From NCBI RefSeq assembly GCF_901538265.1, contig NZ_LR593886.1, positions 9,631,738 to 9,695,737 of the forward strand: 64,000 nucleotides of DNA, written 5' to 3'. Of the stretch, positions 28,336 to 61,762 are shown piece by piece (the first letter of the stretch is position 1; each line of letters starts with the position of its first letter). Made by a program: the position numbers and the translations under genes. The notes beneath the pieces were generated by a model that saw only the letters and a list, made by a program, of their open reading frames with translations, made no database searches and was not told the DNA's origin. The DNA comes from Gemmata massiliana. GTDB taxonomy: Bacteria > Planctomycetota > Planctomycetia > Gemmatales > Gemmataceae.

Positions 28336-29895
28336 TTACTTCGCCTTCCGGAGCCGCGCCCAGTAGCCGCCGTCGGACGGGCGCCCGGGCACAGAGGTGT
28401 GTTCCGCTTCGAGCGCCAGGCTCCGCATTCCGCGGCACACGGCCCTCACAACGCCCTCGTTCTCGTCCGGCTCGATGCTGCACGTGGAGTACACCACCGC
28501 ACCGCCCGGCTTGACCCGTTCGGCCGCGAGAATAAGTAACCGCGTTTGCAGGCGAATGAGGTGCTCGAACTCGTTCGGCTTCAGGCGCCAACGCACTTCG
28601 GGGCGCCGACCAAGCACTCCTGTGTTGCTGCACGGCACATCGACCAGCGCGGCATCAAACAGTCCCGGGGGCAGTTCGCCATCCTCTTTGAGCAGAACCG
28701 TTTCTACGCCCTGAATCCCGAGCCGCTGGCACAGCGTGGTTACTGTTTGAAGGCGCTTCGCCTCAATGTCGCAGGCGGTGATGTGGCCCCGATTGTCCAT
28801 CAGTTCCATCAGGTGCGTCGTCTTGCCGCCGGGTGCCGCGCACGCATCGAGAACGCGCATCCCGGACTTCACCCCGAGCGCGGACGCGACAAGCATCGAC
28901 GAATGGTCCTGGACTGCGAAGTCGCCCGCAGCGAACCCCGGGAGATCACGGATCGCATGATGCTCGGGGAACAGAAGCGATTGCGGGTGCGTTCCCGGCT
29001 CCGCTTCGATCGTCTGCCCGGCGAGCTGAACGCGGTACGATTCGCGGCTCGCGTTCAGTTTGTTCACGCGAATCCACAACGGCGGAGGCGCGTTGAACCA
29101 GAACCCGAGTCGCGTGCATTCGGCCGGGCCGTAGCGCTCGATCCACCGGTTCGCGAGCCACTGTGGGAACGAGAACGCGGCCGCGAAATACCCCGTCGGG
29201 TCGGCGACGGGATCGGGAAGAACGGGCCGCGCGAGCCGGCGGTAAGAGCCGCGCCCCAATCCCTCTCCTAAGAAGCACGGCCGAGAGCCATCGACGGTTT
29301 TAAGCCCCTCTCCGTTTAGGGGAGGAGTTTGGGAGGGGTTGTTTTCAGAACCTAACCCCCCAGCCCCCTTCCCTAGGAAGGAAGGGGGAGAAAGACCTGC
29401 GTCGCGCGCCTGCTCCCCTCTGCCTGAAAAAAAAGGGGACGGGAAGGTAGGTTCCCACCCGAACGCCACGGCGTCCGCGCCCGGTTTGTCCGTAAAGTCG
29501 TCCGTCACCAACTCCGACACGCGGCGCAGCACGCCGTTCACGAAGCCTTTGGCTTTCAGCGCACCGACGTAGGGGGCGAGTTCGACCGTTTCGTTGACGG
29601 CCGCGTGCTTGGGGACGTGTGTCAGGAACGTGAGCTGGAACGCACCGAGGCGCAGCAGATCCCACACGCGCGGTTGAACCGCGTGAAACGGAAGGTGAAT
29701 GAACGGCTTCAGAATCGCGTCGAGCGTTCCGCTGCGCCGGATCACGCCGAATACCAGTTGCGTGACAAAGCGGCGATCCTGGGCCGTGAGGCTCGCCTTG
29801 CTGAGTACGTCGTCGATGAGTTCTGCGGCAAACCCGTCACGCGAGCGCGAGCGGTTCAGTACGTCGGCAGCGACCTGCCGGGCGGTAATCGTCAT
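28336..29895 (-). CDS. rsmB: 16S rRNA (cytosine-967-C5)-methyltransferase RsmB with an in-frame repeat insertion
   Basis: 519 residues; the family is usually about 430-450. The N-terminal NusB-like RNA-binding domain (about 1-140) contains DRRFVTQLVFGVIRRSGTLD. The SAM-dependent catalytic domain has VLDACAAPGGKTTHLMELMD (motif I), DVPCSNTGVLGRRPEVRW (motif IV cysteine) and VVYSTCSIEPDENEG (motif VI catalytic cysteine). It methylates C967 of 16S rRNA. Residues about 148-216 (29248-29454) are low-complexity sequence encoded by palindromic repeat DNA; without them the protein is about 450 residues. Its first codons overlap the fmt stop by 4 bp, so translation is coupled. Confidence 0.95.
   Translation of the reverse strand: MTITARQVAADVLNRSRSRDGFAAELIDDVLSKASLTAQDRRFVTQLVFGVIRRSGTLDAILKPFIHLPFHAVQPRVWDLLRLGAFQLTFLTHVPKHAAVNETVELAPYVGALKAKGFVNGVLRRVSELVTDDFTDKPGADAVAFGWEPTFPSPFFSGRGEQARDAGLSPPSFLGKGAGGLGSENNPSQTPPLNGEGLKTVDGSRPCFLGEGLGRGSYRRLARPVLPDPVADPTGYFAAAFSFPQWLANRWIERYGPAECTRLGFWFNAPPPLWIRVNKLNASRESYRVQLAGQTIEAEPGTHPQSLLFPEHHAIRDLPGFAAGDFAVQDHSSMLVASALGVKSGMRVLDACAAPGGKTTHLMELMDNRGHITACDIEAKRLQTVTTLCQRLGIQGVETVLLKEDGELPPGLFDAALVDVPCSNTGVLGRRPEVRWRLKPNEFEHLIRLQTRLLILAAERVKPGGAVVYSTCSIEPDENEGVVRAVCRGMRSLALEAEHTSVPGRPSDGGYWARLRKAK
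29248..29454. repeat. RPE-like palindromic repeat inserted in frame in rsmB
   Basis: About 207 bp of G- and C-tract palindromes interrupt rsmB without breaking its frame. Examples are CCCCTCTCCGTTTAGGGGAGG (29305-29325) and CCCCCTTCCCTAGGAAGGAAG followed by GGGG (about 29363-29388). The segment AACCTAACCCCCCAGCCCCC at 29349-29368 and GGAAGGGGGAGAAA at 29381-29394 recur, slightly changed, in the element at 61618-61762. The encoded peptide (SPPSFLGKGAGGLGS, TPPLNGEGLKT) is proline/glycine-rich. Confidence 0.8.
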
Positions 29896-61617: not shown

Positions 61618-61762
61618 AACCTAACTCCCCCAACCCCCTTCGCCTCCGTTCGCGCCGGTCCTGTCAGCGGAGTTTCTCGCGGACCGGCGACGAAGGAAGG
61701 GGGAGAAAAGAGCCAGTTCTGTTCCCCCTTCCTTCTCAGGAAAGGGGGTTGGGGGGTTAGGT
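61618..61762. repeat. C/G-tract palindromic element, same family as the insert in rsmB
   Basis: Outer arms 61618-61640 (AACCTAACTCCCCCAACCCC) and 61741-61762 are near-complementary. Inside are GAAGGAAGGGGGAGAAAAG (61692-61710) with the facing CCCCCTTCCTTCTC, and GCGCCGGTCC / GGACCGGCG (about 61652-61689). It lies just upstream of the panB start on the minus strand, so it is in the panB leader or promoter. Confidence 0.8.

Follow-up and report, generated by a model that had tools for sequence, protein, structure and literature searches.

An in-frame insert in RsmB of Gemmata massiliana probably derives from a dispersed palindromic element

The rsmB gene of Gemmata massiliana contains an in-frame insert that is related to a palindromic element found between open reading frames (ORFs) of the same genome. 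Both lie in the stretch of 64,000 nucleotides analysed here, called the window (contig NZ_LR593886.1, positions 9,631,738 to 9,695,737), in which the following features are relevant:

28336–29895, minus strand: rsmB, encoding a 519-residue 16S rRNA (cytosine 967-C5)-methyltransferase, interrupted in frame.
29248–29451, minus strand: in-frame insert of 204 nt, 68 residues (149–216), with limits from alignment with insert-free RsmB of relatives.
29295–29340, minus strand: copy of module B, reading NPSQTPPLNGEGLKTV in RsmB; 28.3 bits, matched over 29295–29339.
29341–29348, no strand: spacer of 8 nt separating the outward ends of modules B and A (GGTT-N8-AACC), by inspection.
29348–29454, no strand: imperfect palindrome with arms 29348–29370 and 29432–29454, 74% complementary; the second arm is degenerate.
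29349–29391, plus strand, antisense to rsmB: copy of module A, reading SPPSFLGKGAGGLGS in RsmB; 22.6 bits, matched over 29350–29391.
61619–61762, no strand: intergenic family member with outer arms of module A type and extra internal hairpins, located between ORFs; module A at 61716–61762.

In this list the end of module B and the start of module A in rsmB were each lengthened by one base, to model position 1. The module B copy has two mismatches to the core pattern.

The product of the 519-residue ORF scores above two RsmB equivalog cut-offs of NCBIfam. Pfam matches are NusB (residues 4–127), a ferredoxin-like domain (243–308) and the methyltransferase (339–496). The insert is rich in proline and glycine and lies between the NusB and ferredoxin-like domains. 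An initial annotation of the window had described a Pro/Gly-rich interruption of about 69 residues between the NusB-like and catalytic parts of an otherwise normal protein of about 450 residues. Both statements hold: alignment gives 68 residues and 204 nt, compared with the 207 nt of that annotation (29248–29454, one codon more; both lengths are multiples of three), and RsmB of the insert-free relative G015 has 449 residues. In a comparison with E. coli RsmB (1sqf), residues 127–239 correspond to 14 residues (127–140) of the E. coli chain. Tryptic peptides expected from within the insert are DAGLSPPSFLGK. An AlphaFold2 model built from 18 sequences has a mean predicted local distance difference test score (pLDDT) of 74.9 and falls below 50 over three or more residues solely at 146–213 and 424–433. 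The insert is thus predicted to be a disordered segment.

The insert is shared by G. massiliana (G000) and its nearest relative, G009. Between these two, nonsynonymous (dN) and synonymous (dS) divergence of the insert are 0.161 and 0.348, giving a dN/dS of about 0.46 (one species pair, 68 codons), compared with dN of 0.020 and 0.011, dS of 0.263 and 0.209 and dN/dS of 0.07 and 0.05 for the two flanks. Judged from these sequences, the insert keeps its frame and appears to be under loose constraint. Elements of this kind might be retained because linkers are useful to the protein, as spacers or as an exchangeable linker pool, beyond mere tolerance. The dN/dS below 1 would fit, as would the filling of some slots in several species. 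A value from 68 codons of one pair is weak evidence, however, relatives lack inserts at the same sites, and the host proteins are unrelated, so that we consider such retention rather improbable.

The family to which the rsmB copy belongs was characterized in 61 stretches of the G. massiliana genome, namely 60 of 20 kb and the window, together about 12% of the genome. The family comprises modules A, B and C, which are related to one another. Each forms a hairpin from a pyrimidine tract, with AACC at its outward end, and the elements carry terminal inverted repeats (AACC...GGTT). By inspection, the module ends read AACCTAA, AACCCCT and AACCTAC. Head-to-head pairs combine B with A over 97–126 bp and C with C over 132–133 bp. 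In arrays the module ends face each other over 8 nt as GGTT-N8-AACC; the spacer has this length in nine of the ten cases found by a strict pattern in the sampled stretches, the rsmB copy being too degenerate for this pattern and outside the ten. The initial annotation had proposed a kinship of the rsmB segment with an intergenic element at 61618–61762, and indeed module A is common to both (29349–29391 and 61716–61762). The intergenic element is strongly palindromic (folding z −8.40). At 61640–61690 of the window, and also in L009 and L010, A-type modules carry a second long hairpin at the tip (GCCGGTCC...GGACCGGC), a nested variant. Rfam searches at gathering thresholds gave no match in the 64-kb window.

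With the 207-bp segment as query, at least 93 BLASTN matches were obtained in the 10.1-Mb genome (40 scored of 105 candidate places), where a match is not equal to a copy, since a single element can yield several matches, in parts and from both strands. Apart from the segment itself, the best match is 94% identical over 102 bp. The element is thus abundant elsewhere. The three modules were recognized from 30 of the 105 candidate places together with the sampled stretches. Core patterns matched 69 times for A (at most one mismatch; 39 of the 69 places were listed, and a nearly symmetric site might count on both strands), 60 times for B (at most three mismatches) and 80 times for C (at most one), and the reversed-pattern controls for all three gave no match in the genome. 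Within the order, the core of module A is present in 19 of 102 genomes, all from one family and patchily distributed over 7 of 44 genera. Another genus of this family (g52) also shows patchy spread, with 269 matches in G105, 63 in G109 and none in four other genomes.

The 61 stretches contain 64 modules in 29 clusters. These were classed by judgement from spanning ORFs, codon scores and Pfam, which does not amount to an annotation: 19 lie in genes, 18 of them in frame and one frame-shifted, and 10 are intergenic. In the strictly systematic part of the sample (40 stretches, spaced at 101,352 bp over the first 4 Mb), eight clusters comprise four in genes in frame, three intergenic and one frame-shifted. 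A single Pfam match spans the element in four of the 18 in-frame clusters (penicillin amidase, AMP-binding, SMC hinge and Methyltransf_11). Domains lie on both sides in eight and on one side only in three, one cluster has no Pfam match (L083), and for two the Pfam match occurs in two stretches, the place of the second not being displayed. The hosts are unrelated proteins and include a penicillin amidase, two AMP-binding enzymes, a Methyltransf_11 enzyme, an SMC hinge, a CheA-type kinase (two clusters), an M16 peptidase, an amine oxidase, a DegT aminotransferase, a type III polyketide synthase, a QueG-like protein and a 2340-residue polyketide-synthase-like protein. The latter (L105, 7774–14793) contains three separate palindrome clusters, all in frame. 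In the SMC protein (L108, 5390–9214) a C/A/B array lies within the hinge domain match. The frame-shifted cluster (L080, 9618–11313; about 1.936 Mb of the genome) splits a PSD1/PSCyt2 gene into two frames at a C–C element: profile positions 1–63 and 64–241 are in different frames, and the C–C pair measures 133 nt compared with the usual 132. The split gene is either a recent pseudogene or the result of a homopolymer error.

Both flanks of the RsmB linker were recovered in 18 of 19 genomes of the genus; G006 and L167 (single flank) were left out of the RsmB count and tree. The linker measures 9–15 nt in G015, G003 and G014, 33–75 nt in G008, G002, G017 and G011, and 120–255 nt in 11 genomes, in 10 of which it is in frame (G009 with a run of N). 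Short linkers also occur in the outgroups G023, G028 and G029. Related RsmB proteins thus have a short linker or other inserts at this position, and no conserved, non-repetitive segment. The linkers of G004, G016, G005, G012, G001, G018 and G013 fold beyond shuffled sequences (z −3.5 to −9.5), that of G007 more weakly (−2.4). When the inserts of G016, G005 and G004 were used as queries, all three proved to be dispersed repeats in their own genomes. The G016 insert has 86 matches in G016 and 68 in G007, the G005 insert 129 in G005 and 141 in G013, and the G004 insert 104 in G004, 90 in G001 and 67 in G018, where again matches were counted, often one element on both strands.

An ordinary low-complexity linker, varying by slippage and with no mobile element involved, would likewise be Pro/Gly-rich and disordered. 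The 120-nt linker of G010 has no palindromic signal (z 0.91), and the 75-nt linkers of G017 and G011 encode a peptide unlike the repeat, both of which would suit slippage. For the rsmB insert of G. massiliana, however, this explanation is contradicted by the genome matches, which reach 94% identity and occur both in unrelated genes and in intergenic DNA, and by the dispersed inserts of G016, G005 and G004; we regard it as most improbable.

Repeated insertion into the linker has a more serious competitor. An ancient insertion in the rsmB linker could have had its sequence replaced species by species through ectopic gene conversion, with the palindromes of the respective genome as donors. Several sites are filled in most of the compared species, but by differing sequences, and G004, G001 and G018 have one insert type in common, as such conversion might produce. 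On the other hand, the flank tree groups the short-linker G015 with G004 and G001, and the short linkers in G015, G003, G014 and the three outgroups would require losses. Gene conversion is therefore a possible but not the favoured explanation.

Five further in-gene sites were compared across G009, G012, G004, G001 and G015 (G015 missing at one site). Outside G009, all 19 orthologous readings are in frame and free of stops. About 12 of them carry an insert, often another palindrome, and the rest are short linkers. The site L103:16337–16596 was dropped from this frame count, having proved to be intergenic; at this site the frame is kept in G012 but not in G009 and G015.

It is highly probable that the insert in rsmB represents a dispersed palindromic element in decayed form, which resides in the linker between the NusB and catalytic domains and is presumably translated as a disordered, Pro/Gly-rich loop. 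The insert could instead remain untranslated, if the ribosome skips the hairpin or the segment is cut out of the RNA. Bypass and removal are known for some mitochondrial elements, and many copies do contain strong GC hairpins. Neither process needs a multiple of three or freedom from stops, however, whereas most of the in-gene copies examined have both, which makes an untranslated insert very unlikely.

For translated, mobile elements, the following course of events can be proposed. A hairpin-ended element would land both in genes and between genes. Since each strand offers one open frame and the encoded peptide is Pro/Gly-rich and disordered, a fraction of the insertions in linkers and loops would leave a working protein and survive, while others would be lost. 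Copies that break the frame or hit a folded core would be purged, so that survivors are found in linkers and loops. Genic copies may then be a main source of new copies. An origin of new copies from surviving genic ones would account for the triplet-locked spacing and for the genic subfamily, both described below.

Modules A and B leave exactly one of three frames open on each strand and module C two of three; per sampled cluster, a mean of 2.3 of the six possible placements is stop-free. In a simple binomial model, 18 in-frame clusters among 19 in genes are not expected, where the model assumes independent clusters and open frames are already favoured by the definition of the in-gene class. 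The core-to-core spacing of A–B pairs is 1 modulo 3 in 28 of 29 cases (values of 43, 46, 49, 64, 67, 70 and 73, with 65 as the exception), and that of C–C pairs is 0 modulo 3 in all 24 (78, 81 and 84). A–B pairs are likewise in phase in the relatives G012 (15 of 16) and G009 (11 of 12). These pairs come from the module A places listed (39 of 69 in G000, 39 of 84 in G009 and 39 of 64 in G012) and from the module B places listed (all in G000 and G009, 34 of 44 in G012). Among the in-gene A–B pairs of the sampled stretches, 11 of 12 are in phase.

Sixty further copies were read in G001, G013 and G016 from hit lists, mostly from their upper parts and thus non-randomly: 22 lie in genes in frame, 27 outside genes, and 11 are unclear. 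The hairpin spacing of G001 keeps the phase in all 8 in-gene and all 6 unclear copies, but in 2 of 6 intergenic ones (Fisher p 0.015 when the unclear copies are set aside). G013 has a subfamily with one sequence variant which comprises 5 of 6 in-gene, no intergenic (0 of 12) and no unclear copies (0 of 2; p 0.0007), with a marker picked after the sequences had been seen. We tentatively propose, with somewhat less than even confidence, that the Gemmata palindromes are specialised for life in genes, with a stop-free frame per strand, spacing that changes by three bases at a time, and subfamilies in genes that would copy from gene to gene via fixed linker slots and spread as a translated peptide cassette.

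Several points concerning the palindromic nature, the frame counts, the spacing and the mobility of the elements weigh against these interpretations. The rsmB copy itself folds only slightly better than shuffled sequences, which is not significant (z −1.80 as RNA, −1.84 as DNA), and the entire rsmB linker of the window has a z of −0.29. The folding z-score was therefore rejected as proof of a palindrome in rsmB. Of the initial description of this DNA as C/G-tract palindromes, membership in the family stands, since the copy is assigned by homology and not by folding, whereas its own folding is barely above that of shuffles; it is a decayed family member.

The in-frame count is partly circular, because the class of in-frame genic clusters requires a spanning ORF. 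An element that breaks a gene may go unnoticed and be counted among the intergenic ones; around the other clusters the ORFs were inspected, and for two of these clusters both neighbours were searched with Pfam. The rsmB of G013 is one base out of frame. In G009 frameshifts or stops occur at four of the five tested in-gene sites. These breaks are probably draft errors in C/G-tract homopolymers and gaps, since runs of N and shortened homopolymers are present. In L141 and L146 of G009, frameshifts, stops and a run of N are located at palindromes.

With respect to spacing, the intergenic pairs of G000 are in phase as well (A–B 4 of 5, C–C 2 of 2), which fits selection on genic copies only if they descend from genic copies. 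Spacings and clusters are not independent because of the shared ancestry of copies. G016 showed no triplet spacing pattern with the anchors used, and the claim of phase is consequently restricted to the A–B pairs of G000, G009 and G012, the C–C pairs of G000, to G001 and partly to G013.

As for mobility, none of 17 clusters with both ends shows a direct repeat of 2 nt or more as a target-site duplication. No autonomous partner or parent transposon was seen in the approximately 12% of the genome read, in which no dedicated search was made. For REP-associated tyrosine transposases (RAYT; Y1_Tnp, PF01797; REP, repetitive extragenic palindromic), the own genome G000 gave no match, while the control search was positive in 5 of 14 named genomes. 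Since neither a direct repeat nor a RAYT nor an autonomous partner was found, mobility is suggested by dispersal and by the differences between species.

The palindromes might nevertheless be REP elements, or REP doublets forming hairpins (REPINs), that are mobilised by a RAYT, a Y1 HUH transposase, and lie in genes by chance. Paired hairpins and the lack of a target-site duplication would be in line with this. Moreover, 16 of the 19 genomes of the genus have Y1_Tnp matches; the exceptions are G000, G011 and G017, and the last two are likewise devoid of matches to modules A and B. However, G. massiliana itself has many copies and no Y1_Tnp match, and G002, G006, G008, G013 and G014 have Y1_Tnp but no match to A or B. 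In 20 Y1_Tnp loci of eight genomes, read with about 3 kb on each side (less at one contig end), the six queries (modules A–C and the inserts of G016, G005 and G004) gave no match closer than 2.6 kb. These loci are part of all matches; L175 and L176 are outside the 20, and families peculiar to G002 and G010 are outside the queries. In addition, by inspection the module ends do not start with the GTAG or CGTC tag of REPs (PMC3733652). Mobilisation by a RAYT thus appears unlikely for this family.

The initial annotation had compared the insert to Rickettsia palindromic elements (RPEs). According to a review, these are palindromes of about 150 bp in ten families, first reported with 44 copies in R. 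conorii, and nearly half lie in genes, in frame (PMC10969869). As an analogy the comparison is sound: the Gemmata family is in frame in many unrelated protein genes (18 of 29 sampled clusters), and its palindromes are present in many copies as pairs of 97–133 bp and longer arrays, the rsmB copy itself being decayed. Palindromes in genes are known outside Rickettsia too (PMC3733652). The Gemmata host belongs to another phylum and not to the Rickettsiales, and its modules are GC-rich C/G tracts in a paired design with codon-locked spacing. By analogy, the Gemmata palindromes may work like RPEs. NCBIfam holds an RPE model. The NCBIfam matches of RsmB include no RPE model, and no RPE sequence was compared directly.

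In the RPE and REP accounts (PMC10969869, PMC3733652), as far as consulted, neither codon-locked spacing nor genic subfamilies nor Gemmata are described, and these two properties would set the Gemmata palindromes apart from RPEs and REPs as presented there. Among the literature matches listed, which mostly do not cover subscription literature, there is no account of such repeats in Gemmata. In-frame insertion of palindromes into genes is best known from Rickettsia. The family would represent a second lineage with in-frame palindromes that is GC-rich, distant from Rickettsia and represented by many sequenced species, so that adaptation to translation becomes testable. The Gemmata lineage is free-living. 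Codon-locked spacing together with the contrast between in-gene and intergenic copies in G001 and G013 would directly point to reading-frame selection acting on a small repeat. The elements also suggest a route by which conserved proteins such as SMC, RsmB and the CheA-type kinase gain disordered linkers. Annotators should be aware that a frame break at such C/G tracts may reflect a sequencing error.

Miniature inverted-repeat transposable elements (MITEs) and enterobacterial repeat units (RU; enterobacterial repetitive intergenic consensus, ERIC) are small, non-autonomous and inverted at their ends, and sometimes lie within genes and contain ORFs (PMC10969869, PMC2759123). The Gemmata elements resemble MITEs in their small size and terminal inverted repeats, and differ in the missing target-site duplications mentioned above; no parent transposon was seen in the roughly 12% of the genome that was read. 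A further parallel is offered by intragenic GTAG/CGTC REPs. In PMC3733652, hairpin repeats and dimers within genes are described for e.g. Opitutus terrae and Rickettsia conorii, different REPs at about the same place for recB of two Xanthomonas species, and tolerance in flexible linkers is proposed, as the initial annotation had also suggested for rsmB. Common to both groups are hairpin repeats in genes and different repeats at one site in different species. In contrast, GTAG/CGTC REPs are mostly intergenic and tagged according to the same source, whereas 18 of 29 Gemmata clusters lie in genes and 10 are intergenic. The Gemmata stem has no GTAG/CGTC tag on its 5' side, GTAG being present solely at the 3' side of module C, and the G. 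massiliana genome is without a RAYT match. Some Y1_Tnp loci of the genus have other hairpins adjoining. In L185 of G016, at about 3.2–3.6 kb, a Y1 transposase gene is flanked on both sides by matching hairpins of another kind, which possibly form a REP/RAYT unit of their own.
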